Shown here: positions 31,783-63,388 of the stretch, one piece after another
Numbering within the stretch: the first letter of the stretch is position 1
Layout: each line of letters begins with the position of its first letter
Source: Limnohabitans sp. Bal53
GTDB lineage: Bacteria > Pseudomonadota > Gammaproteobacteria > Burkholderiales > Burkholderiaceae_C
NCBI RefSeq assembly: GCF_003063355.1
Contig: NZ_NESH01000001.1
Location: 62,001 to 126,000 of the forward strand
DNA length: 64,000 bases
Direction: 5' to 3'
Program-made: the position numbers and the translations under genes
The notes under the pieces: generated by a model
Told to the model about the DNA's origin: nothing
Seen by the model: only the letters and a program-made list of their open reading frames with translations
The model's database searches: none

Positions 31783-33093
31783 ATGAAACTGCGCACCTTG
31801 CCCCTGACTTTGGCCTTGATGGCCGCCTTTGCAGGCACCGCACAAGCCCAGAGCTTGGCCACGCTCTACGAAGCGGCCAAAAGCCACGACGCCAACTTCA
31901 AGTCGGCACGCGCGCAGCACGAGGCCACACTGGCCAAGGCCGAGCAAGCCAAGGCCTTCCTGCGGCCTACAGCGGGTTTGGGGGCCAACCTCTCTGAGAC
32001 CGATTTGGAGAATCAGTCAACCAACAGAGACAGCCAATTCGGGACCCGCTCAGTCACGTTCAGCGCAAGCCAGCCGTTGTACCGCCCTGCCAACCAGGTC
32101 AGCTACGAACAAGGCATGAAGCAAGTGGCCTTGGCGCAGGCCCAGCTGAAAGTGGCCGAGCAAGAACTCATCGTGCGCCTAAGCCAGGCCTACTTTGACG
32201 TGCTGACGGCGCAGGAAGGCCTGAATTTCGTCAAAGCCCAGAAATCGGCTGTGTCCGAACAACTCGCTGCCGCCAAGCGCAACTTTGAAGTGGGCACCGC
32301 CACCATCACCGACACGCGTGAAGCACAGGCCCGCTTTGACTTGGTCACTGCCCAGGAAATCGCCGCCGACAACGATCTGCGCATCAAAAAATTGGCCCTT
32401 GACGACACCGTGGGCAAGAGCAATGTGACCCCCAAACCCCTGCTGAGCGCTGTCAACATGGATGGCCTGCAAAGCGGCAGCATCGAGTCGTGGGTGGCGC
32501 AATCGGCCCAAGACAACGGCAACCTGGCGCAGGCCCGCATTGCCCAGGAAGTGGCCCAACTTGAAATCACCAAGGCCAAAGCCGCCCTGCGCCCCACGCT
32601 CGACCTGACCGGCAGTTACGGCATGACTCGTTATCGCAACGGCGCAACATCTCAACCCAACACCAACGCCGCCACCGTTGGCTTGGCCTTCAACCTGCCG
32701 CTGTACACCGGCCAGGCCACACAAAACCGCATCAAGGAAGCCGTGGCTCTGCAAGACAAGGCCCAAAGTGACCTCGAAGCAGCCCAGCGCAACGTGGCCC
32801 AAGCCACCCGCGCCGCTTTCTTGGGCGTGCAATCGGGTCTGAGCCAAGTCAAGGCCCTGCAGGCGGCCGAAGCCTCCAGCCAAAGCGCTTTGGACGCCAA
32901 TAAACTGGGCTACCAGGTGGGTGTGCGCATCAACATCGATGTGCTCAACAGCCAAAGCCAGCTCTTCCAAACCAAGCGCGACCTGGCCAAGGCCCGCCAC
33001 GATGTGTTGGTGGGGCAGTTGCGGCTGAAGCAGGCCGCAGGGGTTTTAAAGTCGGAAGATTTGAAGGAAATCAGCCTCCTCCTACAGAAGTAA
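31783..33093 (+). CDS. tolC: TolC-family outer-membrane efflux channel
   Basis: A 436-residue protein with a signal peptide (LRTLPLTLALMAAFAGTAQA) and the two homologous helical halves of TolC. It opens SLATLYEAAKSHDANFKSAR and shows the family's YDVLTAQE-like segment, RLSQAYFDVLTAQEGLNFV. The second half contains PLYTGQATQNRIKEAVALQD. As a trimer it forms the outer-membrane tunnel for type I secretion and RND pumps. Being downstream of the RND genes, it could complete a full efflux system, though the pcm-rhodanese-tolC linkage is conserved on its own. Confidence 0.92.
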   Translation: MKLRTLPLTLALMAAFAGTAQAQSLATLYEAAKSHDANFKSARAQHEATLAKAEQAKAFLRPTAGLGANLSETDLENQSTNRDSQFGTRSVTFSASQPLYRPANQVSYEQGMKQVALAQAQLKVAEQELIVRLSQAYFDVLTAQEGLNFVKAQKSAVSEQLAAAKRNFEVGTATITDTREAQARFDLVTAQEIAADNDLRIKKLALDDTVGKSNVTPKPLLSAVNMDGLQSGSIESWVAQSAQDNGNLAQARIAQEVAQLEITKAKAALRPTLDLTGSYGMTRYRNGATSQPNTNAATVGLAFNLPLYTGQATQNRIKEAVALQDKAQSDLEAAQRNVAQATRAAFLGVQSGLSQVKALQAAEASSQSALDANKLGYQVGVRINIDVLNSQSQLFQTKRDLAKARHDVLVGQLRLKQAAGVLKSEDLKEISLLLQK

Positions 33094-33289: not shown

Positions 33290-33986
33290 ATGAACCCAAT
33301 CAACTTATTCATTTTTTTTCAAAGGGTTTGCGGAAATTTTCATAACAACGCCTTGTTAATGGCAAGAATAGGTGTCTTGGGAATGGCTTGCAGCATGCCC
33401 GTGTCGCGTGCAGCCTTCAATATAAGTGCGTTTTTGATGATCACAGGCTGGCTGTTGTCAGGCGGATTCAAGTACGAACTGCAACACGGTTTAACGAGGC
33501 GTTATGGAAGCCTCAACATACAAAACCGATGGGGAGCACACCTCTGTTGGTGCACGCCTGAAGGCCTGGGAATATTCGATTGAATTAATAGGTAAGTCAC
33601 CATGGCTCGGTCACGGAGTAGGCTCCTACAAAGCAAAAGCTTTGCAAAATTTTGAAAGTATCAGCGTTTGCAAGTTAGGTATCTGCGATCAACCCCACAA
33701 CCAATTCATAACGACAGTAACTGAAACAGGTGTCATTGGTATCCTTGGGCTTTTTGTTTGGATGCTATCACCATTTACCCATTTAAGAAAAGCAGCCACA
33801 AGAGGTATTGCAGACCATAAAAATTTACTCTCGCCCTTGATGGTTATTTTTTTAATCACCGCCATGTTTGATAGCAGTCTAAAGATTCAAGGACAATTAT
33901 TTTTCATGGTCATTAAGCTTGGGCTGATATCCTGCGCCGTCAAAAATAGTCAATCAGATGGGGCTTCCGCTGTTCCAATAAACTGA
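33290..33986 (+). pseudogene. O-antigen ligase (WaaL/Wzy_C), internally deleted
   Basis: An upstream frame encodes MARIGVLGMACSMPVSRAAF and FLMITGWLLSGGFKYELQ, which look like the first helices of an O-antigen ligase. A second frame from 33504 encodes SVGARLKAWEYSIELIGKSP, WLGHGVGSYKAKAL, DQPHNQFITTVTETGVIGIL and GLFVWM, the C-terminal Wzy_C region that faces the periplasm. Everything between, about 250 residues including the core loop, is missing and the two parts are in different frames. The protein that normally joins O-antigen to lipid A core is thus lost here. The sequence is also more A+T rich than its neighbours, which suggests recent arrival. Confidence 0.7.
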
Positions 33987-34715
33987 CATCCAGTCAACAA
34001 CTCCATGTCCGTAGTGAGGAAACCGTTCCCAGTTGCCTTTGGGTGGCCGCACCAAGTCAATTGGCCGGGGTTTACCATGAAAAATCACCAGCTTGGCCTC
34101 TGGTGGTGGCGACTTGGGTGGTAAAAATCGGTCCAGCACCAGTGGTTGGCGCAAATGGTATTTGAAACTGACCAACCAGTCTTGCGGCCAATACGCGATG
34201 CCGTCGACGGCGTGGTGAAGGTATTCCTGCTCGATTTTGTGTTGGGCCACCAAAGCATCGCGCTGGCTTTTCAGTTTATCGACCACATGACCCAGGCTGC
34301 CAATGTCAAAAGCAAACACGCTTGACATGGTTCTGGGTGGCAAGCTGGGGCTAGACCAAGGGGCGTTGTTGATGGCCACCAGCGGGCCGGGCACGTTAAA
34401 CAGGGGGTCTAGGCTGTCCAGAATAACGGTGTCCAGATCGATAAACAAGCAACGCCCCTGCAGGCCGTACAGGTCGCTGCTGAACACGCCAATTTTGGGC
34501 CAGGCCCCGTCGTAGTAGTGGCTGTGCTCAAGCCCGATGTCGGGAATGGGGAAGACCTCAATACCGGGCAACAGGCCTTGCGACTCGCCTGTCAGGCACA
34601 CAAATCGAAATTCGCCAGATATGTGGCGCTGGCAAGCGCGGTACAGCACGTTCACGTATTCGGCGGGATACAAGGTGCCCCACTTCATGCAAAGCACTAC
34701 TTTTGATTGATTCAT
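33954..34715 (-). CDS. Putative glycosyltransferase, 253 aa
   Basis: The N-terminal part MNQSKVVLCMKWGTLYPAEY is followed by YRACQRHISGEFRFVCLTG and GRCLFIDLDTVILDSLDPLF. The last has the DxD acid pair of nucleotide-sugar-binding GT-A enzymes. This layout is typical of LPS glycosyltransferases of unknown linkage. The end overlaps the downstream O-antigen ligase remnant by 33 bases on the opposite strand. The gene probably shares the nonulosonic acid operon upstream, since it follows the GT25 gene after four bases. Donor and acceptor sugars are unknown. Confidence 0.75.
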   Translation of the reverse strand: MNQSKVVLCMKWGTLYPAEYVNVLYRACQRHISGEFRFVCLTGESQGLLPGIEVFPIPDIGLEHSHYYDGAWPKIGVFSSDLYGLQGRCLFIDLDTVILDSLDPLFNVPGPLVAINNAPWSSPSLPPRTMSSVFAFDIGSLGHVVDKLKSQRDALVAQHKIEQEYLHHAVDGIAYWPQDWLVSFKYHLRQPLVLDRFLPPKSPPPEAKLVIFHGKPRPIDLVRPPKGNWERFPHYGHGVVDWMSVYWNSGSPI

Positions 34716-34719
34716 GGCA

Positions 34720-35490
34720 TTATTTCTTTGGAAAAAGTTGGCCTGATTGCATCAGGTAGAGCTGTTTGCGCACCAGGTCGCGCAGGCGCCTTTTGAAGGT
34801 GGGCATGCGCCGGTACCAAGGGTACTTTTTGACGCCGGCAAACCCCTGCCCTGTGATGGTGCTTTGGTTTTCGTCATTCACATGGCTGGGAAAGGGCTCA
34901 AGCCCTAAGCGGCGCAATTGGTGGCGGTGCACCCGGTCAAGCTCAAGATCGATGGGCAAAACAATGGGCAACATGGCAGGCAACAAGCGCGCTGCCGTGT
35001 CACGGGAAATCAAATACGCGCCCATGCCTGTGAGAGGCCCCATATAGGCATTGAGCGAATACCGCCCCACACGGGTTTGACACACGGGCTGTTTGGCGCG
35101 GATTTTGTTGAGGTTAAGCATGTCCCAGCTGTGGCGGTGTTGCAGTGCCTCGCCAAGAGCCGCCATAAAGTCTTCACCAAACACCACATCGTCTTCAAGG
35201 ACCAAAAGGGTGTGGCGATCTGACTGCAACAAAGCCTGCCACGACTGCAGGTGTGAGTGGTAGCAGCCGATTTCACCGGGCATGAGGTCGCGGCCTACAT
35301 GGCGCTCGAATGCGACCTGGTCTACTGTGCTGCGCAGCGTGTCCCACTGAGCCTTGCCGTCCACAGCCGACAAACGGGTATAGGCCAACCCCAAGGCGAG
35401 GAGGCGCTGTTCCATCTGTTGGCGGCGCTGAATGGACCTGTCCAGATTGATGAGGATGACCATCAAACCGGGGAAGCTGCGCTGGGTCAT
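34720..35490 (-). CDS. Glycosyltransferase family 25 (LPS biosynthesis)
   Basis: The 256-residue protein begins VILINLDRSIQRRQQMEQRL, typical of GT25, followed by LPGEIGCYHSHL-like MPGEIGCYHSHLQSWQALL, then LLVLEDDVVFGEDFM with the DxD-like acid cluster. The C-terminal NDENQSTITGQGFAGVKKYP is also seen in the family. GT25 enzymes such as the LgtB and LpsA groups add galactose or glucose to LPS. The start overlaps the neuC stop as ATGA, so they are translated together. Its presence suggests a sugar that carries or follows the nonulosonic acid. Confidence 0.85.
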   Translation of the reverse strand: MTQRSFPGLMVILINLDRSIQRRQQMEQRLLALGLAYTRLSAVDGKAQWDTLRSTVDQVAFERHVGRDLMPGEIGCYHSHLQSWQALLQSDRHTLLVLEDDVVFGEDFMAALGEALQHRHSWDMLNLNKIRAKQPVCQTRVGRYSLNAYMGPLTGMGAYLISRDTAARLLPAMLPIVLPIDLELDRVHRHQLRRLGLEPFPSHVNDENQSTITGQGFAGVKKYPWYRRMPTFKRRLRDLVRKQLYLMQSGQLFPKK

Positions 35491-36647
35491 GACACTGTCT
35501 CGGCAAAGGCTTTTTGTTGCCCTTGGTTCCAGTAGTCTGAAGTTTGCAGCACCGACACAAATTGCTCGGACGAACGCCCGCTGCCAAAGGCTTGGCTGGC
35601 CACGGCGTGGCGAGCCCAACGGGTGGTCAAAAAGTCGGCGATGGTGGCGGTGTCAAGCGCAGACGCGCTGACGATGGATGACCCACTGGCCCGCTGGTTT
35701 TGCCGCGTGCCCACATCCAGGCTGGGCAAGCCCAAAAACGGCGCCTCGCGCACGCCGGCGCTGCTGTTGCCCACCATCACCGCCGCGTTTTTCATCAGCT
35801 CGCTGAAGTAGTTAAAGCGCATGGACGGGATGAGGCGAAAACGCTCGAGGGGCAGTTGTTCGAGCACGGCAAAAATGTCTTCGGTGCCGGGGTCGTTGTT
35901 GGGGGCGATGACCACAAAACACTTGCCACTGGCTTGTAGCGCGCCAAACAAAGACTTGGCTTGGGCGCCAATGGTGTCTTGCTCGGACGTGACCGGGTGA
36001 AACACGGCGATGCCGTAGTCGTCAAACGGGATGGCGTAGCGGGCTTTGACTTCTTGGATGCTGACGCCAGACGGCCGGGCGTGGGTGTCCAGCTCGGGTG
36101 AACCGATGTTGAACACGCGCTCAGGCGATTCGCCCAGCGCCAGCACGCGGGCTTTGGCCGATTCGCTGCTGACGAAGTGGGTGGCACAGAGTTTGGTGTT
36201 GCAGTGGCGAATGCTTTCGTCGATGGTGCCGGACACCTCGCCACCTTCCACATGGGCCGAGCGGATGTAGCGCATGGCGCAGACGATGCTGGCGGCCAGC
36301 GCTTCAACACGGTCGCCGTGGATGATGACCAAGTCGGGCCGGTGTTCGTGCACAAAATCCGAAAAGCCGAGGATGGTCTTGCTGAGAATAAAGTCCAGCG
36401 CATCGCCTTCGCGCTGGTTCACAAACTCAAAAAACTCGGCACCGGCAAAGCGTTTCACTTCCAGGCGGGTTTCGCCATAGCGCTTCATCATGTGCATGCC
36501 AGTGATGAAGAAGCTGATGTGAAAGCCCGCGTCTTGAGCGGCTTTGGCCAGGGGCTCGAGCTTGCCGAAGTCAGCCCGGGTGCCGGTGACAAACAGCAGG
36601 CGTTTGCCCGTGACCGCTGTGCCGGACACGCTTGGCGCGTCGCTCAT
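35487..36647 (-). CDS. neuC: UDP-N-acetylglucosamine 2-epimerase, hydrolysing (NeuC-like)
   Basis: The 386-residue enzyme makes N-acetylmannosamine from UDP-GlcNAc in the first step of sialic acid synthesis. The N terminus RLLFVTGTRADFGKLEPLAK, the central DLVIIHGDRVEALAASIVCA and AHVEGGEVSGTIDESIRHCN (with the conserved acid and histidine groups), and NSSAGVREAPFLGLPSLDVG are all family signatures. Start and stop overlap neuB and the GT25 gene as ATGA, showing tight operon design. Whether the product is ManNAc or a modified sugar cannot be read from sequence. Confidence 0.9.
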   Translation of the reverse strand: MSDAPSVSGTAVTGKRLLFVTGTRADFGKLEPLAKAAQDAGFHISFFITGMHMMKRYGETRLEVKRFAGAEFFEFVNQREGDALDFILSKTILGFSDFVHEHRPDLVIIHGDRVEALAASIVCAMRYIRSAHVEGGEVSGTIDESIRHCNTKLCATHFVSSESAKARVLALGESPERVFNIGSPELDTHARPSGVSIQEVKARYAIPFDDYGIAVFHPVTSEQDTIGAQAKSLFGALQASGKCFVVIAPNNDPGTEDIFAVLEQLPLERFRLIPSMRFNYFSELMKNAAVMVGNSSAGVREAPFLGLPSLDVGTRQNQRASGSSIVSASALDTATIADFLTTRWARHAVASQAFGSGRSSEQFVSVLQTSDYWNQGQQKAFAETVS

Positions 36648-37690
36648 GCTTGGGGCTCCACACCTTCTAGGTCGGCCCACTTGAGCTGCTGATTGCGTTT
36701 AAGGGCACCCCGGGTGCGCGCACCGATCAAACGGTCAAAGTGCTGCACCGAGATGTCGCCCGAGCCGGGGCGGCGGGCCCAAATGTCTTTTTCGGTGATG
36801 ACGTGGCCCGCAGGCAGATCGCGGTCGGCCACGATGGAGCCGCGCGCAAAGCGATAGACGTCTTCTTCAGGGGCGGTGCGCACCTTGGGGTTGTTGAGCG
36901 CGGTGTGGATTTCTTTGGAGCGGTCGATGATGAAACGCAGTTCGGCTGGGTCCATCGAGCAGCTGATGTCGGGGCCTTTGCGGTAGCGGGTGTCGGTGAA
37001 GTGGCGCTCCAGAATGCAGGCGCCCAAGGCCACGGCGCTGATGGCCATGCTGGGGCCGATGCTGTGGTCGCTAAAGCCGATGACGGCTCGGGGGAAGGCC
37101 TGGCGCAGCTCGGTGATGCCTTGCAGGCTGACGATCTCGGGTGGCGAAGGATACAGGTTGGTGCACTCCAGCAAGGCGTAGTCCACGCCAGAGGCATCGA
37201 GCGCGGCCACGGCGGGGCGCATGCTGTCAACGGTTTGCATGCCGGTGCTCATGATGATGGGCTTGCCAAAGCTGGCGATGTGGCGAATCAGCGGCACGTG
37301 GTTGCATTCGCCCGAGCCAATCTTGAAACCAGCCACACCAATGTCGGCCAAAAAGTCGGCTGCGGCGCGCGAAAACGGGGTGGAGATGTAGATCAGGCCC
37401 AGGTCTTCGGCGTGTTTTTTGAGGGCGATTTCGTCGTCTTTGGACAGCGCGCATTCCTGCATCACGTCCCAAATGGATTTGTCGGCGTTGGGCGGGAAGA
37501 TGCTTTTGGCTTCGTCGGTCATTTCGTCGTCAACGAAATGGGTCTGGTGTTTGACCATTTCACAGCCGGCCAGGCGCGCGGCGGTGACCATGGCTTTGGC
37601 CACCTCAAGGCTACCGCCGTGGTTGATGCCGATTTCGGCAATGACCAAGGGAGGGTGTTGGGGGCCGATGTGGCGGTGGGCGATTTTCAT
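36644..37690 (-). CDS. neuB: N-acetylneuraminate synthase family protein (NeuB)
   Basis: NeuB condenses ManNAc (or a related sugar) with phosphoenolpyruvate to make a nine-carbon nonulosonic acid. Motifs include VIAEIGINHGGSLEVAKAMV near residue 15, VKHQTHFVDDEM, GFKIGSGECNHVPLIRHIAS, KPIIMSTGMQTVDSM and GFSDHSIGPSMAISAVALGA. The C-terminal SAF/antifreeze-like domain is seen in RGSIVADRDLPAGHVITEKD. Length is 348 residues. The ATG at 37690 overlaps the neuA stop codon. No pseB/pseC-type genes are near, which favours a sialic-acid or legionaminic-type product over pseudaminic acid. Confidence 0.92.
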   Translation of the reverse strand: MKIAHRHIGPQHPPLVIAEIGINHGGSLEVAKAMVTAARLAGCEMVKHQTHFVDDEMTDEAKSIFPPNADKSIWDVMQECALSKDDEIALKKHAEDLGLIYISTPFSRAAADFLADIGVAGFKIGSGECNHVPLIRHIASFGKPIIMSTGMQTVDSMRPAVAALDASGVDYALLECTNLYPSPPEIVSLQGITELRQAFPRAVIGFSDHSIGPSMAISAVALGACILERHFTDTRYRKGPDISCSMDPAELRFIIDRSKEIHTALNNPKVRTAPEEDVYRFARGSIVADRDLPAGHVITEKDIWARRPGSGDISVQHFDRLIGARTRGALKRNQQLKWADLEGVEPQA

Positions 37691-38388
37691 GGTGGGTTTC
37701 CTTGGGTGGCGCTGCTGAGCAGGGCTGCGCACCGCTCAAAATCATCCCTATTATCGATGTCAAAGCTGCGTTCAGCGGGCATGACCACGGTGCCAATGCG
37801 TTCGCTGACAAAACTTTTCTGTTCAATGAACCATTGCGCATCCATGGCGTAGACCGCGCCGTTGGGTTTGTAGACAGGGGGCAGGCTTTGGCGGTTGGCA
37901 AAGCAATGCTCGGGTCTGGACAGCGGAACAAAGCGGCCATCGGGCATCACTTGGCCCCACTTGAGCACGCCGCGGTCGGCATCGGTGACGGATATGACCA
38001 AATCAAACACACCACGCGCCAGGCGCGCCAGGGCTTGTTGCACGTCGACCACCTGGCGCAGCGGCGATGTGGCCTGCAGCAACACCACCGGGCCTTGCAC
38101 CTGGGCGGTTTGCAAGGCATGCATCAGCACCGGGGCCATGGGCACGTTGTCGCCACACAGTTCGTAAGGACGCTGCAGGGCTTGCACGGCTTGAGGCAGC
38201 TCAGCAGTCAGCACCTCGTGGATGTCGGTGCTGATGAGTACCCGGCAGGCCCCTGCTGCCAGGGCCAGGTCCACCGCATGACGGTAAAGGGGTTTGCCGG
38301 CGAGCGGGCGGGTATTTTTGCCGGGCAAGCCTTTTGATCCCCCACGCAAAGGGATGACGGCTGTCCAGGGTCTAAGGGTGGCGGGCAT
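37687..38388 (-). CDS. neuA: Acylneuraminate cytidylyltransferase (CMP-nonulosonic acid synthetase)
   Basis: The enzyme activates a nonulosonic acid with CTP to CMP-NulO. The N terminus TAVIPLRGGSKGLPGKNTRP matches the CTP-binding motif of NeuA/KdsB-like transferases, followed by LLQATSPLRQVVDVQQAL. The late block ERSFDIDNRDDFERC holds the conserved acidic pair. The open frame extends to 38418, but I prefer the ATG at 38388; both are possible, and the gene is divergent from the KdtA-like gene that begins 43 bases away. It completes a NeuC-NeuB-NeuA set for CMP-nonulosonate. Confidence 0.88.
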   Translation of the reverse strand: MPATLRPWTAVIPLRGGSKGLPGKNTRPLAGKPLYRHAVDLALAAGACRVLISTDIHEVLTAELPQAVQALQRPYELCGDNVPMAPVLMHALQTAQVQGPVVLLQATSPLRQVVDVQQALARLARGVFDLVISVTDADRGVLKWGQVMPDGRFVPLSRPEHCFANRQSLPPVYKPNGAVYAMDAQWFIEQKSFVSERIGTVVMPAERSFDIDNRDDFERCAALLSSATQGNPP

Positions 38389-38430
38389 GGGCGTAACTAT
38401 ACTGAAGGGTTGAGCCATTTCACCGCACCC

Positions 38431-39810
38431 ATGACTTCACCCCATCGATCAGCCGCGCCGCCTTTCCCTTCTTGGGGTTTGGGCTGGGCCATTCGGGCTT
38501 ACGAGCTGCTGTGGCACCTGTTGCTGCCACTGGTGCTGCTGATGCTCTGGCGGCGCGGGGCGAAGGAACCCTTGTACCGTCAATTCTGGGGGGAACGCTT
38601 TGGCGGCGTGAGCTGCACGCTGCACCGACCGGTATGGGTGCATTCGGCATCGATGGGCGAGATGCGGGGGGCCGCACCTTGGGTACATGCCTTGCTACAA
38701 AAGGGGATGCCGGTCTTTTTGACCACCTTGACCCCTGCCGGGCGGCACACTGCGCTCAAGCTGTTTGCCCATGCCATGGACAGCGGGCAGCTGCAGCTGG
38801 CCTATGCCCCGATGGAGCTGAGTTGGGTGGTGCGCCGTTTTCTGGCCCGGGTGCAACCGCGCTGTGCGGTGATGACCGAAATTGACACCTGGCCGGTGCT
38901 TCTGGCCACCCTGCGCCGCGCTGGGGTACCGCTGGCGATGGCGAACGCGCAGTACCCCCAAGCGAGCTTCGAGCGCGACCAGCGCTGGGGCGGGTTCAGA
39001 GCACGCCTGTTCAAGGCCTATGAACTGGTGATGTGCAAGTCCGATCTGCAGGCTCAGCGTTTTGCTGAGGTGGGCTGTGCGCGGGTGGCGGTGGTGGGTG
39101 AGACGCGTTTTGACTTGCCTGTGTCGCAGGCGCAGCTCGCCGCTGCGGCCCAAACGCTGCAAATCGGGCAACTGCAGGCGCGCCCGGTGGTGTGTTTTTC
39201 CAGCACCATTGTGGGTGAGGACGAGTTGTTGATTGGCACCATGCGGCGCATGCAACAGACCTTGGCCCAGGCAGGGTGCCCTGCACCGCTGTTTGTGTAT
39301 GTGCCGCGCAGTCCGCAGCGCTTTGATGCGGTGGCGCAGCTGCTGCAGGACGCGGGCATGCGCACGGTACGGCGCAGCCACGCGCTGGATGCGCACTTGC
39401 AGTGGCACACCCAGCCCGACTGGCCTTGCACCGATGTGCTGCTGGGTGATTCGATCGGCGAGATGTACTTTTACCTGGCCTTGGCGCAGGTGGTGGTGGT
39501 GGGCTCGTCGTTTGGCGACCGGGCGGTACACAACATCATTGAGCCTCTGGCCATCAACAAACCGGTGTGGACTGGCCCGAGTGTGCGGGGCATTGAATAC
39601 CCGGCTATCGAGGCGCTACAGGCCGGGGTGCTGCACCACGCCCAGGACGGCAATGACCTGGCGGACCAACTGAGCGACGTGTTGGCCAACCCGGCCGCTT
39701 ACGCGAGCTTGGTGCAAAAAACGGAACACTTCAATGCGGCCCACGCGGGTTCGGCCGCGAAACACATGGCAGTTTTTTTGCCCTGGCTGTTGGAGCGCAG
39801 CCCACCATGA
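38431..39810 (+). CDS. KdtA/WaaA-family glycosyltransferase, first of two
   Basis: The 459-residue protein has the N-terminal membrane anchor (LLWHLLLPLVLLMLWRRGAK) of 3-deoxy-D-manno-octulosonic acid transferases, then VWVHSASMGEMRGAAPWVHA with the conserved GE pair, MTEIDTWPVLLATLRRAGVP, VVGETRFDLPV and LLGDSIGEMYFYLALAQVVV. Where E. coli WaaA has GGHNxLEP this protein reads AVHNIIEPLAINKPV, a notable change. WaaA normally attaches Kdo to lipid A. This gene begins next to a divergent neuA and leads, by an ATGA overlap, into a second family member. It may be a standard WaaA or a nonulosonic acid transferase. Confidence 0.85.
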   Translation: MTSPHRSAAPPFPSWGLGWAIRAYELLWHLLLPLVLLMLWRRGAKEPLYRQFWGERFGGVSCTLHRPVWVHSASMGEMRGAAPWVHALLQKGMPVFLTTLTPAGRHTALKLFAHAMDSGQLQLAYAPMELSWVVRRFLARVQPRCAVMTEIDTWPVLLATLRRAGVPLAMANAQYPQASFERDQRWGGFRARLFKAYELVMCKSDLQAQRFAEVGCARVAVVGETRFDLPVSQAQLAAAAQTLQIGQLQARPVVCFSSTIVGEDELLIGTMRRMQQTLAQAGCPAPLFVYVPRSPQRFDAVAQLLQDAGMRTVRRSHALDAHLQWHTQPDWPCTDVLLGDSIGEMYFYLALAQVVVVGSSFGDRAVHNIIEPLAINKPVWTGPSVRGIEYPAIEALQAGVLHHAQDGNDLADQLSDVLANPAAYASLVQKTEHFNAAHAGSAAKHMAVFLPWLLERSPP

Positions 39811-41066
39811 AACCACGCCCCCTGGCAATTCGCCTTTATGGTCAGGTGTTTGAGATCCTGACTCCCCTGTGGCAATGGTGGCTGCAGCAGCGCCTGCGGC
39901 GCGGCAAGGAAACGCTGACCAGTTTGGACCAGCGCTGGATGCGCAGCCCTCCTGCGCGCCCCGAAGGCACATTGGTGTGGGGCCACGCCGTGGGGGTGGG
40001 TGAGGCTCTGGCACTGGCAGGCTTGCTCAAGCGCCTGCAGGAGCAGCGCCCCGACCTGCATTTTTTGATCACCACCACCGCCCGCACGTCGGGCCAGGCC
40101 CTGGCCAAGCAAGCGCTGGGGCCCCAATTTACCCACTGGTTTGCGCCGGTGGACACACCGAGCAATGTGGCGCGCTTTGTCAATCACTGGCAACCCGACT
40201 TGGCGCTGTGGTGTGAAATGGATTTGTGGCCGGCGCTGATCGACGCCACAGCGCAGCGCAGCACACCCCATGTGCTCGTGAACGCCCGCTTGAGCGCTGC
40301 AGCTGCGGCCAAACGCCGTTGGGGGCGCGCTGTGTATGCACCCTTGCTGGCGGGCTTTGATGCCATCTGGGTGCAAAACGCCGAAACCGCCCAGCACCTG
40401 CAAGCGCTGGGCGCGCTGCCTCAGCGCATGGACATCACCGGCACCATCAAGGCCATGGTGCCACCCCTGGCCGCGAACCCCAGCGACGTGGAACGATGGA
40501 GACAGGCGCTTAGCGGCCGTTGTGTGTGGGTGCTGGCGTCCAGCCACCCTGGTGAAGAAGAATTGGCCTTGGCTGCGCACAAGCTTTTGCGCGACAAATA
40601 CCCCAATGCCCTGCTGATACTGGCCCCACGCGATGCGGGCCGGGGTGCCACTGTGGCGGCAATGTGCGGCCCGGACACACCATTGCGCAGCCAAGGCGCG
40701 CTGATGCCCGGCACGGCACCCTGCTATGTGGCCGACACCATGGGCGAATTGGGCCTGTGGTACCGCCTGAGCCAAGTGGCCATGGTGGGTGGCTCATGGG
40801 CACCTGTGGGTGGGCACAACCCCTATGAGGCGACCGCCTTGGGAAACACCGTGTTGCACGGCCCCCATGTGGCCAACTTCAGTGAAAGCTACGACGACCT
40901 GGATGCACAGGGCTTAAGCGTGCTGGCACTGAGCGCAGAGCAACTTGCCGCCACCGTAACCGAGGTGTGGGCCTCAACCAGAGCAGACGGGGCCAGTGAG
41001 CAAGCGCTTACGGAGCGCTGTGCTACAAATATTCAGAAATTGTTGGCCATGCTTGTTCCGGCTTGA
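39807..41066 (+). CDS. KdtA/WaaA-family glycosyltransferase, second of two
   Basis: This 419-residue protein is clearly homologous to WaaA: LVWGHAVGVGEALALAGLLK, LWCEMDLWPALIDATAQRST, VLVNARLSAAAAAKRRWGRA, WVLASSHPGEEELALAAHKL, CYVADTMGELGLWYRLSQVA and GGSWAPVGGHNPYEATALGN. It keeps the GGHN block that the first copy has lost. But it has no long N-terminal membrane anchor (IRLYGQVFEILTPLWQWWLQ is the only hydrophobic stretch). It overlaps the first copy by four bases. Two diverged copies in tandem suggest two sequential ketosidic additions, perhaps Kdo and a nonulosonic acid. That split is inference. Confidence 0.85.
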   Translation: MKPRPLAIRLYGQVFEILTPLWQWWLQQRLRRGKETLTSLDQRWMRSPPARPEGTLVWGHAVGVGEALALAGLLKRLQEQRPDLHFLITTTARTSGQALAKQALGPQFTHWFAPVDTPSNVARFVNHWQPDLALWCEMDLWPALIDATAQRSTPHVLVNARLSAAAAAKRRWGRAVYAPLLAGFDAIWVQNAETAQHLQALGALPQRMDITGTIKAMVPPLAANPSDVERWRQALSGRCVWVLASSHPGEEELALAAHKLLRDKYPNALLILAPRDAGRGATVAAMCGPDTPLRSQGALMPGTAPCYVADTMGELGLWYRLSQVAMVGGSWAPVGGHNPYEATALGNTVLHGPHVANFSESYDDLDAQGLSVLALSAEQLAATVTEVWASTRADGASEQALTERCATNIQKLLAMLVPA

Positions 41067-41117: not shown

Positions 41118-42521
41118 TCAGTGGGCGGCGTCACCCAGCAACGCGTCGGGTTTGACCGAGCGCAGCAGCGCCAGCATTTCGCCCTCGATGCGGTGCAGGG
41201 CCGCTTCGGTTTGGCCCTCAAAGCGCAGCACCAACACAGGCGTGGTGTTGGAGGCACGGATCAGGCCAAAACCATCGGGCCAGTCGATGCGCAGGCCGTC
41301 GATCGTGAAAATTTGAGCGGGCGGCTTGAACGCATCACCAGCGAGCACCTGCAAAGCGCGGGTCACGCTGTGCGGCTCACCTTCCACGCAGGCCACGTTC
41401 AACTCCGGCGTGCTGAAGCTGGTGGGCAAGGCATTGAGCACGGCGTTGGCGTCAGGGGCTTTGCTCACAATTTCGAGCAAACGGCAGCCTGCATACGTGC
41501 CGTCATCAAACCCATACCAGCGCTCTTTGAAGAAGATGTGCCCGCTCATCTCGCCGCCCAAGGGGGCTTGGCCACCTGCTGCCTCGATGGCGCGCATTTG
41601 GGCTTTGATCAGCGAGTGGCCGGTTTTGAACATCAAGGGCTTGCCGCCAGCGGCTTCGATGGCCGGGGCCAGGCGCTGTGAACACTTGACGTCAAACAAG
41701 ATGGTGCCGCCGGGTACGCGGCTGAGCACGTCTTGGGCAAATAACTGCATCTGGCGGTCGGGGTAGATGTTGTTGCCGTCGGCAGTGACGATCCCTAAGC
41801 GGTCGCCGTCGCCGTCAAAGGCCAAGCCCAGTTCTGCGCCACTGGTTTTCAGGGCGTTGATCAGGTCTTGCAGATTTTCCGGTTTGCTGGGGTCGGGGTG
41901 GTGGTTGGGAAAGTTGCCGTCCACTTCGCTGAACAACTCGATCACCTCGCAACCCAGGGCGCGAAAAATGCCAGGAGCCGAAGCGCCCGCGATGCCGTTG
42001 CCCGAGTCGATCACGATCTTCATGGGCCGCGCCAGCCGGATATCGCCCACAATGCGCTGCGTGTAGTCGACCAGCACGTCCAGCTGCGTGACGCTGCCGC
42101 CGCCTTGCAGCTGCCAGGTCTCGTCTTCCATCATCTGACGCAGGCCCTGGATTTCGTCGCCATAAATGGCGCGACCGCCCAGCAACATCTTGAAGCCGTT
42201 GTAGTCCTTGGGGTTATGGCTGCCCGTCACCTGGATGCCGCTTTGGCAAGCGGTGCTGGCCGCAAAGTAAAGCATGGGCGTGGTGGCCAAACCGATGTCG
42301 ATCACCCGGATGCCTGCAGCCACCAAGCCGCGAATCAGCGCCGCAGACAGGCTTGGCCCGCTCAAGCGGCCGTCGCGCCCCACCGCCACGGTGCTTTCCC
42401 CGTGAGCCAGCGCGTGTGTGCCAAAGGCCTTGCCCAGGCCTTCGGCCACTTGTTCGTTCAGGGTCGAGGGCACCACGCCGCGGATGTCGTAGGCTTTGAA
42501 GATGGAGGGGGTCACTTGCAT
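41118..42521 (-). CDS. Phosphomannomutase/phosphoglucomutase (AlgC-like)
   Basis: The 467-residue enzyme interconverts hexose 6-phosphates and 1-phosphates for sugar nucleotide synthesis. The opening SIFKAYDIRGVVPSTLNEQV, the phosphoserine loop VTGSHNPKDYNGFKMLLGG, the metal-binding GLAFDGDGDRLGIVTADGN and the substrate loop LGGEMSGHIFF are all standard. The start is the ATG at 42521. Placing it next to WaaA-like genes is common in Burkholderiales. It converges on the second WaaA-like gene with a 51-base gap. Confidence 0.94.
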   Translation of the reverse strand: MQVTPSIFKAYDIRGVVPSTLNEQVAEGLGKAFGTHALAHGESTVAVGRDGRLSGPSLSAALIRGLVAAGIRVIDIGLATTPMLYFAASTACQSGIQVTGSHNPKDYNGFKMLLGGRAIYGDEIQGLRQMMEDETWQLQGGGSVTQLDVLVDYTQRIVGDIRLARPMKIVIDSGNGIAGASAPGIFRALGCEVIELFSEVDGNFPNHHPDPSKPENLQDLINALKTSGAELGLAFDGDGDRLGIVTADGNNIYPDRQMQLFAQDVLSRVPGGTILFDVKCSQRLAPAIEAAGGKPLMFKTGHSLIKAQMRAIEAAGGQAPLGGEMSGHIFFKERWYGFDDGTYAGCRLLEIVSKAPDANAVLNALPTSFSTPELNVACVEGEPHSVTRALQVLAGDAFKPPAQIFTIDGLRIDWPDGFGLIRASNTTPVLVLRFEGQTEAALHRIEGEMLALLRSVKPDALLGDAAH

Positions 42522-42681
42522 GAAAAAAACCAATCAAAAGCCACCAGGCTTGGTTGATGAAATGATGAATTGAATACGCATTGTAGGCGGCCAAGGCTGA
42601 CGAAAAGGGCATCAGCATGGGTCCGAAAACAGCACAAACCCCCAGGTCATAGGCACCCGTTTGCCGATAACATGACCGCCA

Positions 42682-54503: not shown

Positions 54504-55373
54504 TCACTTCAACAGGCTGAGCAGGTACTGCCCGTAGCCGTTCTTTTTCAGCGGGTCTGCCAATGCTGCCAGCTGCTCGGCGTTGATCCAGCCCTGGCGG
54601 AAGGCAATCTCTTCGGGGCAGGCAACCTGCAGGCCTTGGCGCTTTTGCAGGGTGGCAATGAAACTGGCGGCCTCCAGCAAGCTGTCGTGGGTGCCCGTGT
54701 CCAGCCATGCGTATCCCCGCCCCATGATCTCCACGTTTAGTTGTCCTTGATCCAGGTAGCGGCGGTTCACATCGGTGATTTCCAGCTCGCCCCGGGCAGA
54801 AGGCTTGATGTCTGCGGCTATGTCACACACCTGCTGGTCGTAAAAATACAGCCCGGTCACCGCGTAATTGCTTTGAGGCGCCTTGGGCTTCTCTTCAATA
54901 CTGATGGCTCGCTGCTGCGCATCAAACGCCACCACGCCGTAACGCTCAGGGTCGTGTACATGGTAGGCAAACACGCTGGCACCGGTGGTGCGTTCATTCG
55001 CGCTGTACAGTTGCTTAACTAGGTCGTGCCCGTAGAAGATGTTGTCGCCCAGCACCAGCGCGCTAGGGTTGTTACCCACAAAGTCGCGCCCGATGAGGAA
55101 GGCTTGCGCCAAGCCGTCCGGACTTGGTTGAACGGCATACTGAATGTTCATCCCCCAACGCGCACCGTCGCCCAACAGCTCAGCAAAGCGTGGCGTGTCC
55201 TGCGGGGTGCTGATGAGCAGCACATCGCGAATGCCACTCAGCATCAATGTGCTTAGTGGGTAGTACACCATCGGCTTGTCGTACACCGGCATGAGCTGCT
55301 TGCTCACTGCCTGCGTCACGGGGTACAGCCGGGTGCCAGAGCCCCCGGCCAGGATGATGCCTTTACGTGTCAT
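54504..55373 (-). CDS. rfbA: Glucose-1-phosphate thymidylyltransferase
   Basis: RfbA makes dTDP-glucose from glucose 1-phosphate and dTTP. The opening [20 protein letters not shown], the [20 protein letters not shown] block, the [20 protein letters not shown] metal-binding part and the [20 protein letters not shown] end are all family signatures. At 289 residues it is standard. Its ATG at 55373 overlaps the rfbB stop codon, so the two are translated as a unit. Confidence 0.97.
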
Positions 55374-56437
55374 GCGGCTTCTCCCTCATATTGTTTGGCC
55401 ACCCATTCTCGGTATGCGCCGCTTTGAACATTGGCTACCCACTCCGGGTTGTCCAGGTACCACTGCACCGTCTTGCGGATGCCGGTCTCGAAGGTCTCGG
55501 CGGGCCTCCAGCCCAGTTCGCGCTCGATCTTGCGCGCGTCGATGGCATAACGCCGGTCGTGGCCAGGGCGGTCAGTCACGTAGGTGATTTGTTGGGCGTA
55601 AGGCTGGCCATCCGCACGCGGGCGCAACTCGTCGAGCAACTGGCAGACCGTGTGCACGATTTCGATGTTGGGCTTTTCGTTCCAGCCTCCGACGTTGTAG
55701 GTTTCGCCCAGCTTGCCCGCCTCCAACACGCGGCGAATGGCGCTGCAGTGGTCTTTCACATAGAGCCAATCGCGGATCTGCATGCCGTCGCCGTAGACCG
55801 GCAGGGGCTTGCCGGCCAATGCGTTGACGATCATGAGCGGGATGAGCTTTTCCGGGAAATGGTAAGGCCCGTAGTTATTGCTGCAGTTGGTGGTGACTAC
55901 CGGCAGGCCGTAGGTGTGGTGCCAGGCGCGCACCAGGTGGTCAGACGCGGCCTTGCTGGCCGAATACGGGCTGTTGGGTTCGTAGGGTTTGGTTTCTGCA
56001 AACGGTGGGTCGTCTTTGGACAGCGTGCCGTACACCTCGTCGGTGCTGACGTGCAGGAAGCGAAAGGCCGCCTTTTCGGCCTCGGGCAACCCGCTCCAGT
56101 ATGCGCGCACGGCTTCGAGCAAGCGGAAGGTGCCGACGATATTGGTCTGAATGAAGTCTTCGGGGCCGTGGATGGAGCGGTCCACATGGCTTTCGGCCGC
56201 AAAGTTGACCACGGCACGAGGTCGGTGCTGAGCCAGCAGCGCATCCACCAGCGCGCGGTCACCCAGGTCGCCTTGAACAAACACATGGCGGGCATCGCCT
56301 TGCAGGCTTGCGAGGTTCTCTAGGTTGCCGGCATAGGAGAGTTTATCGAGGTTGATGGCGGGCTCATCCGACTGGGCCAGCCAGTCGAGCACGAAGTTGC
56401 TGCCAATGAAGCCGGCACCGCCAGTTATAAAAATCAT
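55370..56437 (-). CDS. rfbB: dTDP-glucose 4,6-dehydratase
   Basis: RfbB makes dTDP-4-keto-6-deoxyglucose. The Rossmann motif is [20 protein letters not shown], followed by [20 protein letters not shown]. The catalytic [11 protein letters not shown] and [15 protein letters not shown] contain the Asp-Glu and Tyr-Lys pairs. The late [19 protein letters not shown] fits the family. Length is 355 residues. The usual rfbD reductase does not follow: rfbA and rfbC do. Confidence 0.97.
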
Positions 56438-56460
56438 ATAAAAATATATAGGCGTGTTTT

Positions 56461-57324
56461 TTAACCCAAAATCTTACTTACGTTGGATTTGATATTTTTT
56501 TTGCTTGAGGATCCAAATAGGATGGCGTCAACATGCCCCTTGTGCAAATGATCTACAACGTAATTCATTGCTTCGTTAGGACTGGCGCGTCCGGATGCGA
56601 GCACAGACATGGCAATGTTGTTTGATCTACCACTAGCAAATGACGCTTCACAAGAAGTTTGTGAAGGATTCATTCGAAACCCATCAATGTTGTAGTTCGC
56701 ACATATCCAAGGCTTGTTAATACCAGCTTTATCGCACAGGAATTCAGTGGCAATTGAATGGTTCATAGTAATAAATCCTGGGTGAGCTCCGAGCTTGTTT
56801 GTGACAACCTCAGCGAAATTTTCAATCACCCCATGCAGCTCCATTGACATCAGAAAGTCAAAAGCCAGGTTCTGTAAGAAAATGCCGCGTACAGGTAGCC
56901 CCTTGCACATGAGAGTTTCAATTTGAGTTAAAACTTGAGTAATGCCTTTCGTACTGCCGACAAACAATCCAAGTGTTGCCGGAATCAAACTCAGCGGATT
57001 AATCTGGAATACCGTTGATGTGAGCATTCCGACCGGCCCTAAGTCCGATAGCTTATTCCAATACTTGTGCGCATAGGGAAGACATGGCGTGTAGTACATC
57101 CCAGGGAAAAGGTTGGATCGTCGGATCTCGTCAAAGACAGGCTCATATCGATCATGGGTTGTGAACATGAAGTCTCGCACCCCTGCCTCGTAGGCGAATC
57201 CAATCACCTCTATGATTGCATCGGGGTTCTTGAAGCGATCAAATAGTTCAGCGGCCTTGGCCTGGTTCGCATGGTTAACGCCAAGAAACTGGTTGTCTCC
57301 GAGAATTGCTTTTCCATAGCTCAT
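56461..57324 (-). CDS. Unknown TIM-barrel-like protein in O-antigen cluster
   Basis: The 287-residue protein begins [20 protein letters not shown] and has [20 protein letters not shown] and later [20 protein letters not shown] near its end. Together these resemble the barrel strands of aldo/keto-reductase-like or other TIM-barrel proteins, but the catalytic residues of aldo/keto reductases are not plain. I do not recognise the family. Its start overlaps the upstream Gfo/Idh-type gene as ATGA, so both probably act on the same sugar. A+T content is higher than in its neighbours. Confidence 0.6.
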
Positions 57325-58355
57325 TTCAAACCAGCCTTTCGCGCGATTTCATCAATGATGCGATCCACTTCGCATCCATCCTCCAGTCGTGCCATTGTGT
57401 CGGCAGGTATTGAATCGTCGACACTCAATCGACGCCCAACACACGTCCCCAAAAACTCTTCGAGTTCTAATGAAAACTCTTCGCCACGGAGGTAGTAGGC
57501 GACATTGCTCGGTCGGATCGGCACATCAATCTCTAGGCGCTTCTCCTCGTTAATGGTGCACCCGTCATTCCACGTGATTTCAACGGCCGAGTTGTCCACA
57601 CGGACCTCGGCTTCCTCGAACTTCACCTTGAACTCCACGACTGATTTGCGCTTGGTGGTATCGCACCAGTCGATTTCCACCGCCCCCACACTGCCGTTGC
57701 GGTGGGACCAAGCCAAGTCAATCCGATCATCCGCATGGGCGCAAAAAACCTGGCTCATGCGGACATCGCCGACCCGATCCACTGGACCAAAAATGAACTG
57801 GCACAAGTCGATGATGTGTGGACCGTACTCATTCAAACAGCCCCCCCCCATCTTGAACTGACCTTGCCAACTGTCGGCTGCGGGCGGCTTTAGAATGACA
57901 TTCCCGCGCATGGATGCTGTGTAGTCAAGCATCGCGCCCAGCTGTTTGCTCTGCACTAGGTGCCGCAGGCGCTGGAACGACGCAACATAGCGCAGCACGA
58001 AACCAACCTGCACCGGCACGCCCTTGGCCGCTGCCAGCGACTTTAGCTCGGTGCTGGCCTCAACGTTGAGCGTCAGCGGCTTCTCGACAAAGCACGGCAC
58101 GCCTTTTCCGATCGCCCACTTCGCCAGCGGGGCGTGCGAGGGCGTCGGGGTGGCGATCAGCACGCCCTCCAGTCGGTCCACCTTGGATGCGGCCACCTCA
58201 ATATCCGCAAACGTCTTGTAGCCCAACAGACGAAACAGGACGCGGGTACTGAACTTGGTATCGCATAGTGCCACATTGCTCTTTCCCACATATTGGGTTG
58301 CCAAGGCCAAGTGGGACATGCCCATCTTCCCGCCACCAATCACAAGTATCGTCAC
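57321..58355 (-). CDS. Gfo/Idh/MocA-family oxidoreductase
   Basis: The 344-residue protein opens TILVIGGGKMGMSHLALATQ, the NAD(P) Rossmann motif. The family's conserved EKP triad is in GVPCFVEKPLTLNVEASTEL near residue 90, and GGGCLNEYGPHIIDLCQFIF holds the C-terminal substrate-binding block with its conserved acid and histidine. Such enzymes oxidise or reduce sugar hydroxyls, often the 3-keto step of amino sugar synthesis. Next to an epimerase and an unknown protein, it is likely part of a special O-antigen sugar pathway. Confidence 0.88.
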   Translation of the reverse strand: MTILVIGGGKMGMSHLALATQYVGKSNVALCDTKFSTRVLFRLLGYKTFADIEVAASKVDRLEGVLIATPTPSHAPLAKWAIGKGVPCFVEKPLTLNVEASTELKSLAAAKGVPVQVGFVLRYVASFQRLRHLVQSKQLGAMLDYTASMRGNVILKPPAADSWQGQFKMGGGCLNEYGPHIIDLCQFIFGPVDRVGDVRMSQVFCAHADDRIDLAWSHRNGSVGAVEIDWCDTTKRKSVVEFKVKFEEAEVRVDNSAVEITWNDGCTINEEKRLEIDVPIRPSNVAYYLRGEEFSLELEEFLGTCVGRRLSVDDSIPADTMARLEDGCEVDRIIDEIARKAGLK

Positions 58356-58367
58356 TATTACGTCCTC

Positions 58368-59516
58368 TCAAACACTAACGCCGAGCATTAGCCCGCGTTC
58401 TTTCATTTCGGAAAGCGAGCGCTCGTAAGCGCTATCCTTGTGCCCTTGGGTGGCCGCCCACGCGGCGAACTGCTGGATGCCGTCCGCGAAATTGACCTTG
58501 GGCACAAATCCCACCAAGCCGTTGATCTTTGTCAAGTCGGCATAGTTGTGGCGAATGTCGCCCAGACGGAAGTTGCCCGTCACATTGGCCATAATGTCCG
58601 AATTGAACGCCGCCTTGAGATGCTTAACCACCTCCAGCACCGTGGTGGCCACGCCGGAACCCACGTTGAAGACCTGTCCCGCTGCGTTGGCGTGCTCCAC
58701 AGCCAGCACCGTGGCGGTGACCACGTCGTCAATGAACACGAAGTCGCGGCTCTCCAGCCCATCCTCGAACACATTGATCTTGCCGCCACCCATGATCAGA
58801 TTGGAGAAGATCGACAGAATGCCGGTATAAGGGTTGCTCAGCGACTGGCCCGGACCATAGACGTTCTGGTAACGCAGAGCCACCGGCTCGATGCCGAGCA
58901 GAGGGCACACCGTCATTACCAACTGTTCTTGCACCTGCTTGGTGATGCCGTACACCGACGAGGGGTGTATGAGCGATGACTCGTCTGTGGCCACCAGCGT
59001 CAGTGGCGCATCGGTCTGCGTGTCGTACAACTCGAACCGCCCCGCCTGCATGTGGCGCTCATCGCGATGCGACGGGTAGGTTGCCGCACCGGTGGCCGTC
59101 AGGTACTTGCCTTCGCCGTAGATCGAGCGCGACGATGCCACAACCATTCGCTTGATTCCGTGGTCCTTTCGCGCACCCAGGATGTCGAGCATCATGGCCG
59201 TGGCCTGAATGTTGACCTGGGTGTAGTGGTCCACCATGTACATCGACTGCCCGGTGCCAGTCTCGGCGGCATAGTGCACCACCACGTCCTGGCCTTCGAG
59301 CGCCTGCTCCATCGTTGGACGGTCGCAAACAGACCCGCGGATAAAACGCACCTTTCCACTGATAGCGGCGAACAGTGGCGAGGCCTCGGGGTCGGCACCG
59401 TGAACCTGCTCCGACAGATTGTCCAGCACCGTGATCTCATAACCCTTTTGGTGGAGGGCCTCGACAAGATTCGAGCCTATAAAGCCGGCACCGCCGGTGA
59501 TGAGGATTTTGGTCAT
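58368..59516 (-). CDS. NAD-dependent epimerase/dehydratase (extended SDR)
   Basis: The 382-residue protein has the Rossmann motif [20 protein letters not shown] at the N terminus, the YAAETGTGQSMYMVDHYTQV segment, and the catalytic SSVYGITKQVQEQLVM (Tyr-Lys). The late HNYADLTKINGLVGFVPK region resembles UDP-sugar epimerases. It probably acts on a nucleotide sugar, as a 4-epimerase, dehydratase or reductase. The start at 59516 is preceded by a purine-rich stretch; the frame to 59603 is not supported. Confidence 0.88.
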   Translation of the reverse strand: MTKILITGGAGFIGSNLVEALHQKGYEITVLDNLSEQVHGADPEASPLFAAISGKVRFIRGSVCDRPTMEQALEGQDVVVHYAAETGTGQSMYMVDHYTQVNIQATAMMLDILGARKDHGIKRMVVASSRSIYGEGKYLTATGAATYPSHRDERHMQAGRFELYDTQTDAPLTLVATDESSLIHPSSVYGITKQVQEQLVMTVCPLLGIEPVALRYQNVYGPGQSLSNPYTGILSIFSNLIMGGGKINVFEDGLESRDFVFIDDVVTATVLAVEHANAAGQVFNVGSGVATTVLEVVKHLKAAFNSDIMANVTGNFRLGDIRHNYADLTKINGLVGFVPKVNFADGIQQFAAWAATQGHKDSAYERSLSEMKERGLMLGVSV

Positions 59517-59539
59517 AGTTGACACTCCAAAAAAGAAGG

Positions 59540-60535: not shown

Positions 60536-60543
60536 TAACGAAC

Positions 60544-61512: not shown

Positions 61513-61525
61513 GATATCAATTGCA

Positions 61526-63381: not shown

Positions 63382-63388
63382 TAAAGGG

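Follow-up and report, generated by a model that had tools for sequence, protein, structure and literature searches.

A nonulosonate-linked chimeric pair of WaaA-family genes in place of ordinary waaA in Limnohabitans and relatives

We analyzed 64,000 nucleotides of the genome of Limnohabitans sp. Bal53 (RefSeq assembly GCF_003063355.1, contig NZ_NESH01000001.1, positions 62,001 to 126,000; genome G000 in our numbering, C1:62001-126000), a stretch referred to below as the window. It carries a cassette in which neuC, neuB, and neuA, genes for a cytidine monophosphate (CMP)-activated nonulosonic acid, are divergent from two overlapping genes of the family of WaaA (KdtA), the CMP-Kdo:lipid IVA transferase of 3-deoxy-D-manno-oct-2-ulosonic acid (Kdo), which we take to be family GT30 of CAZy. 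The two genes, here called GT30a and GT30b, share 4 bases in the open reading frame (ORF) list. An earlier note on this DNA had described the arrangement, with a GT25 gene overlapping neuC, and had proposed that one of the two WaaA-family copies may have changed from Kdo to the nonulosonic acid. The ORF coordinates and family matches (Table 1) agree with the description, and the evidence below favors GT30a as the changed copy.

A cassette at the waaA locus

Both GT30 proteins pass the PF04413 gathering cut-off (23.9 bits), NeuC reaches 357.5 bits with its NCBIfam model (cut-off, 235.9 bits), and the nearest solved relatives of NeuA, 6ifd and 1eyr, are both CMP-N-acetylneuraminic acid (Neu5Ac) synthetases. 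In another genome of the same genus (G087), tolC, a single ordinary waaA, and a phosphomannomutase gene follow one another, with the mutase gene directly beside waaA (locus L020); in the genome of the window and in G114, the order is tolC, cassette, and mutase gene, with the cassette at the exact position of that waaA.

Among 120 genomes of the family, PF04413 matched in 116, with exactly one match in 113 and none in 4 (single-copy scores, 161 to 229 bits). The tandem pair was found in G000 (167 and 146 bits) and G114 (165 and 145 bits) only, and G043 had a second, weak match besides its first. The sole candidate for a second WaaA elsewhere in G000, a partial third match of 22.3 bits in a 565-amino-acid frame (L003), was rejected as falling below the cut-off.

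A scan of named genome contigs with two short peptide patterns returned 63 stretches, 29 of which were confirmed as further loci (carriers without the patterns are missed by such a scan). Their GT30a is 49 to 89% identical to the queries from G000 and G114, and their titles name Limnohabitans, Hydrogenophaga, Rhodoferax, or Comamonadaceae, except for two that go no further than Betaproteobacteria or Burkholderiales. Limnohabitans sp. Rim11 and 2KL-17 and Hydrogenophaga sp. IBVHS1 and IBVHS2 are among the carriers. GT30b directly follows GT30a in 28 of the 29 loci, in genomes with exactly two PF04413 genes; in the 29th, the contig stops after GT30a and one such gene is present. Every GT30a sequence of the resulting 31 betaproteobacterial carriers (29 plus G000 and G114) is distinct. 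The PF04413 search, which also answers an earlier call to look for another waaA, found no further WaaA and no other full-length GT30 match in any of the 31. A chance arrangement is excluded, since it recurs across 31 distinct genomes and again in a second bacterial group, described below. Since many of the 31 are draft or metagenome assemblies, a gene missing from a single carrier weighs little, and it is the overall pattern that counts. We regard the replacement of ordinary waaA by a chimeric GT30 pair linked to neu genes as well supported.

Heptosyltransferases of family GT9 (PF01075) gave no match in 27 genomes, 24 with the cassette and 3 with an ordinary waaA (G000, G114, G087, G004, and G013 are among the 27), in a search that was positive in Escherichia coli and four other controls. 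A cassette-specific loss was ruled out, as the match is also missing in the three genomes with ordinary waaA; heptose-free inner cores may be a trait of the family.

Table 1. Genes of the cassette and its conserved flanks in the window
Feature	Coordinates	Strand	Evidence and remarks
tolC, conserved gene on the left of the waaA locus	31783-33093	+	TIGR01844, 295.3 bits
GTx, accessory, family unnamed	33954-34715	-	Also present next to GT25 in some further cassettes
GT25 glycosyltransferase, accessory	34720-35619	-	PF01755, 101.8 bits
neuC, hydrolyzing UDP-GlcNAc 2-epimerase	35487-36680	-	TIGR03568 (NeuC_NnaA)
neuB, nonulosonate (Neu5Ac-type) synthase with SAF domain	36644-37732	-	PF03102 and PF08666
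neuA, CMP-nonulosonate (acylneuraminate) synthetase	37687-38418	-	PF02348, 56.4 bits
GT30a, WaaA family, 466 amino acids	38410-39810	+	TTG start, or ATG at 38431; PF04413, 143.6 bits
GT30b, WaaA family, 419 amino acids	39807-41066	+	PF04413, 167.6 bits
Phosphomannomutase/phosphoglucomutase gene, conserved on the right of the waaA locus	41118-42533	-	Profile matches and synteny with G087

The accessory genes are less constant. GT25 has tblastn matches in 6 of the 29 further carriers (L054, L056, L057, L059, L072, and, for the genome of L067, L083) and in several loci of the second group, and GTx in some cassettes of both groups. GTx had no Pfam or NCBIfam match at E 0.001, and an acidic motif suggests that it may be a glycosyltransferase. 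Between tolC and the cassette lies a fragment of an O-antigen ligase gene (33504-33986, + strand; Wzy_C, profile positions 75 to 148 of 149 only) that looks like a decayed gene. Farther right, an O-antigen-like cluster (54504-63459, - strand) holds nucleotidyl transferase, sugar dehydratase/epimerase, Gfo/Idh oxidoreductase, hexapeptide transferase, and Wzy_C ligase genes. NeuB of a higher-scoring type is encoded twice more in G000, with cytidylyltransferase genes nearby: at C1:129090-132634, just past the right end of the window, and at C12:798976-805513. The genome thus has further nonulosonate-type pathways besides that of the cassette.

Descent and residues of the two GT30 proteins

Placement in a WaaA tree, as had been proposed for both proteins, used random picks of 82 and then 60 of 185 rows (the 60-row tree was bootstrapped, with one long-branch row left out). 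GT30a of both bacterial groups forms one clade (100/100, 60-row tree), which joins betaproteobacterial WaaA together with a single outside reference (100/99), Neisseria in the 82-row tree. GT30b of both groups forms another clade (100/99) on the opposite side of the tree, where it sits with WaaA of families of another class and of Sinorhizobium meliloti (82-row tree). Outside its own group, the best listed matches of GT30b are in families of another class, above all family f95 (about 40 to 44% identity), and not betaproteobacterial. Family f95 appears to belong to the Alphaproteobacteria and, at a guess, to the Rhodobacteraceae; a 94-base piece of locus L115 is 90% identical to Paracoccus, and WaaA of several f95 genomes stands in the order CysQ-DUF4170-WaaA-LpxK, as in S. 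meliloti. We call the GT30b side alphaproteobacterial because of this shared gene order and the position of S. meliloti, and the separate clades make the cassette a chimera of two co-moving WaaA lineages.

AlphaFold (AF2) models of the two proteins (pLDDT, 90.7 for GT30a and 89.0 for GT30b) both have WaaA 2xci as top match in the PDB (GT30a, Z 34.2, 3.6 Å over 350; GT30b, Z 27.6, 4.7 Å over 351), and the best non-WaaA rows reach Z 24.5 and 21.6, respectively. Residues E60, R269, E311, N335, and E338 (E. coli numbering throughout) are retained in both window proteins; E60 is presumably the catalytic base of E. coli WaaA. Sixty columns are at least 80% conserved in each of the two canonical WaaA sets (the model alignments left out L070 for GT30a and L073 and L075 for GT30b). 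Ten of these are lost in GT30a of both taxa (V58, R154, S156, Q183, K208, E245, H270, Y316, N354, and F355; substitutions include R154Q, Q183K, K208R, and F355I), and three in GT30b (S57, H270, and L384), which retains R154, Q183, K208, E245, Y316, N354, and F355. The top NCBIfam matches of both proteins are WaaA-type models, so automatic annotation would probably label both waaA and hide the change; the scores fall short of the cut-offs (GT30a, 315 versus 524; GT30b, 279.8 versus 438), as does that of the ordinary waaA of G087 (456.2 versus 524).

Two points of the earlier note did not survive this comparison. It had singled out GT30a by the loss of a GGHN motif, which cannot serve as a marker: canonical betaproteobacterial WaaA mostly reads GGQN (20 of 29 rows), and in GT30a of the beta lineage the usual form is GAHN (26 of 31 rows), with AVHN in two rows, the window and L051. 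What marks GT30a as the changed copy is the loss of R154, Q183, K208, F355, and others. It had also held that GT30b lacks the long membrane anchor; the N terminus is of normal length, as the stretch up to the conserved Glu counts 66 residues (E. coli WaaA, 60; GT30a, 84).

With the GT30 fold and conserved Glu in both proteins, the pair might be a bifunctional WaaA split in two, one member transferring the first Kdo residue and the other the second, with neuABC as mere neighbors that feed GT25, GTx, or another transferase. We consider this unlikely; the loss by GT30a of ten residues that are fixed in Kdo transferases is left unexplained, and gene neighborhoods, given next, bear on it as well.

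Linkage to nonulosonate genes in two bacterial groups

A NeuA-type gene lies by the pair in 31/31 betaproteobacterial carriers (about 10 kb off in L064 and as a contig-end fragment for L067). NeuB of the cassette type (about 222 to 234 bits) is present in 30/31, split over two contigs in G530, and in the sole miss (G533, locus L073) the contig stops just after neuA. With the pair beside neuABC in relatives and no further waaA found in the carriers, the refuting test set out in the earlier note does not overturn the idea of a changed donor. As a control, NeuB of any type was found in 33 of the 120 family genomes, 29 of them with a single ordinary waaA; in these 29, the two genes share a contig in 9, at least 37 kb apart, and lie on different contigs in 20, where the distance is unreadable.

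In Hydrogenophaga sp. Bet4 (L064, L081), the roughly 10 kb between GT30a and neuA contain ferredoxin-reductase-like, choline-dehydrogenase-like, and aldehyde-dehydrogenase-like genes. L064 was ruled out as a neu-less case, with neuA, neuB, and neuC about 10 to 14 kb away behind this insertion, and G083 as a broken cassette, its NeuB being merely 35% identical.

The cassette NeuB is 73 to 74% identical to NeuB of a cluster on pSymB of S. meliloti in which neuC and a polysialyltransferase gene are also present; this similarity, together with the NeuC family model, makes Neu5Ac or a close derivative the likely product. Six beta cassettes (L054, L058, L062, L072, L073, and, via L083, that of the genome of L067) have a neuA of a different type (27 to 33% identical). 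In L054, a short-chain dehydrogenase/reductase gene and a Gfo/Idh oxidoreductase gene stand alongside the variant neuA, and the same trio is found in locus L181 of the second group, which suggests that the sugar varies among carriers while the GT30 pair stays. The known bacterial sialyltransferase families are GT38, GT42, GT52, and GT80 (numbers from PMC12887879). No match of these types was found among 10 window proteins (Pfam and NCBIfam, E 0.001; the search for them did not extend to other proteins of the genome), so the sugar may be transferred by a GT30 protein, by GT25 or GTx, or by an enzyme encoded elsewhere.

A KdsB-type gene (PF02348, at least 173 bits) is present in 28/31 carriers, and KdsA was found in both carriers tested (G000 and G114), which makes continued synthesis of CMP-Kdo probable in most carriers; for these, a complete loss of Kdo is unsupported. 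Retention of the KdsB-type gene also suits the division of Kdo transfer between the two proteins, as does a precedent for divided inner-core Kdo transfer, Acinetobacter KdoT (PMC12856342). Two Kdo transferases would leave unexplained both the travel of neuABC with GT30a across two bacterial groups and the presence of GT30a, with no GT30b, in pseudaminic acid clusters.

Evidence for the preferred reading, in which GT30a transfers a nonulosonic acid, comes also from f95. GT30a-type proteins (215 to 374 bits) occur in 69 of 394 genomes of this family; other listed GT30 proteins score at most 121 bits, with one partial match between. We fetched 22 loci around GT30a, mostly of top scorers plus two low ones and not as a random draw from the 69. 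A NeuA- or NeuB-type gene lies near GT30a in all 22, and GT30b in 17, mostly in the order neuB..neuC-GT30b-GT30a..neuA. GT30a stands without GT30b beside neuABC in L170 and L177 and within a pseudaminic acid cluster in L183 and L184 (PseB, 527 and 550 bits, above the cut-off in both; PseC, 516 bits, above it in L184; PseI, 317 and 314 bits, just below it in both). The changed residues of these last two are partly different (position 154 is A or N, position 156 is T, and E245 is kept), as would be expected if some of the positions meet the sugar. Twenty loci were fetched via GT30b-like matches; 18 lack neu genes as well as GT30a, and the remaining 2 have neu genes and also GT30a. These loci and those without GT30b make GT30a the constant partner of the nonulosonate genes.

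Reversed roles, with GT30b transferring nonulosonic acid and GT30a transferring Kdo, would agree with the departures of GT30b from canonical residues (S57G and H270) and with the grouping of GT30a with native betaproteobacterial WaaA. We give this very little credence: GT30a accompanies neu, pse, or like genes with no GT30b in 5/22 alpha loci, neu genes without GT30a occur in 0/20 loci fetched via GT30b-like matches, and residues lost by GT30a are retained by GT30b.

Some further observations concern the same family. In six f95 genomes (G1067, G1080, G1172, G1210, G1219, and G1233), GT30a was the sole match to P0001, a search uninformative on further WaaA. Plasmid carriage of GT30a was rejected: of 32 PLSDB matches, the 30 listed do not exceed 32.5% identity, and many of them are annotated waaA. 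Two alpha genomes with two GT30 matches show another GT30 context (L125 and L128, 9.2 to 10.9 kb), where the gene lies between MoaA-type and GT4 genes and near a GlmS-like gene, with no lpxK seen.

Proposed function and significance

In the proposed route, NeuC would convert UDP-N-acetylglucosamine (UDP-GlcNAc) to N-acetylmannosamine, NeuB would join this to phosphoenolpyruvate to give a Neu5Ac-type acid, and NeuA would activate the acid to the CMP-sugar. GT30b would be a Kdo transferase of alphaproteobacterial descent, and GT30a, a GT-B protein with the catalytic Glu of WaaA, would attach the nonulosonic acid to Kdo, or to lipid A next to Kdo, at the position of the second Kdo. In cassettes that have them, GT25 and GTx would lengthen the new branch.

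We infer the donor, acceptor, and linkage of both proteins from sequence, and the parts of the proposal differ in strength. That GT30a transfers nonulosonic acid is fairly probable; for the lipid A-core junction as the site of this transfer, the odds are even or perhaps a shade better. We lean slightly toward the view that the cassette is a transferable "sialo-WaaA" unit replacing waaA, in which GT30b adds Kdo and GT30a nonulosonic acid to give a mixed inner core. On the broadest claim our opinion is evenly divided: GT30a would found a WaaA-family branch that uses CMP-nonulosonates (mostly of Neu5Ac type, and pseudaminic acid in L183 and L184) and, with a foreign GT30b and neuABC, would have displaced an essential waaA in many Comamonadaceae and set a sialic-acid-type sugar at the lipid A junction. 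The switch of one copy, as the earlier note had it, is thus favored, although the reason offered for it was wrong and the chemistry is predicted. Its companion suggestion, that one copy could still be an ordinary WaaA, holds insofar as GT30b keeps most canonical residues; it does not hold for descent, which lies in a divergent alphaproteobacterial-side lineage, nor for the three conserved residues lost.

Several findings weigh against the proposal. By PF02348 score, a KdsB-type gene was not found in three carrier assemblies. The cassette NeuB scores 340.1 bits with TIGR03569 (NeuB_NnaB), under the cut-off of 399.65, and the top NCBIfam match of NeuA is PseF, at 89.9 bits, under the cut-off of 205.7. 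Two genomes with a single GT30, G089 (161 bits) and G019 (168 bits, a partial match), score as low with PF04413 as the pair, so a low score alone is no marker of it. Mean mismatches at the 60 columns are 11.7 for GT30b and 17.3 for GT30a, compared with 5.2 for four outside references and 2.2 and 2.3 for the canonical sets that define the columns; by this divergence GT30b is no ordinary WaaA either, and with the loss of S57 and H270 its donor or acceptor may have changed too. In L165 (9279-13949, - strand), another locus without GT30b, a GT30a-type gene lies with genes for a GMC oxidoreductase, a CMP-sugar synthetase, and a LegC/PseC-type aminotransferase, with no NeuB near it; from this gene set, GT30a may not always serve nonulosonic acid, and the donor there is perhaps an amino-keto-sugar variant, such as one like 8-amino-Kdo.

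The acceptor is also open to challenge in the second group. The 22 alpha loci show no lpxK beside the cassette. At least G605 and G636 give a third GT30 match, so the pair is an addition, not a replacement, in those genomes; the alpha-family pair could have an acceptor other than lipid A. The pair might then build another glycolipid or a capsule linker in place of the lipid A inner core, at least in alphaproteobacteria, in keeping with a homologue of KpsC-type Kdo transferases that is a pseudaminic acid transferase of the Acinetobacter capsule (PMC12887879). We hold this to be decidedly improbable. No GT30 besides the pair was found in the Comamonadaceae carriers, and the pair occupies the waaA locus of G000 and G114, so at least one member should do the work of WaaA, unless Kdo-lipid A is dispensable.

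Read as a Kdo and a nonulosonate transferase, the pair has partial counterparts among known systems. With WaaA (PDB 2xci and 4bfc) it shares the domain, fold, conserved catalytic Glu, and position at the waaA locus and, presumably, a CMP-keto-sugar donor and a lipid A-side acceptor; it differs in being two tandem proteins of unlike descent rather than one, in the residues lost by GT30a, and in the accompanying CMP-nonulosonate genes. Acinetobacter KdoT (PMC12856342) also shares inner-core assembly with another keto-sugar transferase, but it adds a third Kdo after an ordinary WaaA, whereas no such WaaA was found in the cassette carriers and their second donor is predicted to be nonulosonic acid. 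The Acinetobacter KpsC homologue (PMC12887879) is likewise a member of a Kdo transferase family that uses a nonulosonic acid, in family GT107 and capsule as opposed to GT30 and lipid A. Rhodobacter capsulatus is listed among bacteria with Neu5Ac in lipopolysaccharide in a review (PMC9631793; strain 37b4, Krauss 1992 as cited there). This alphaproteobacterial lipopolysaccharide may be a chemical counterpart of the alpha cassette. Our literature search, which left most subscription papers and preprints outside, found no report of a WaaA-family nonulosonate transferase or of such a cassette.

To our knowledge, WaaA and the Kdo-lipid A linkage are near-universal in Gram-negative bacteria, and family GT30 is known only for Kdo transfer. 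If the proposal is true, the lipid A junction would be rebuildable, with a natural replacement by a chimeric pair tied to sialic acid synthesis, and a nonulosonate transferase lineage would join a family so far restricted to Kdo. The four substitutions of GT30a at positions 154, 183, 208, and 355 would offer residue changes for testing donor choice in WaaA. The cassette suggests that some freshwater bacteria carry a sialic-acid-type sugar next to lipid A in their outer membrane, where it could alter recognition by grazers, phages, and host receptors.

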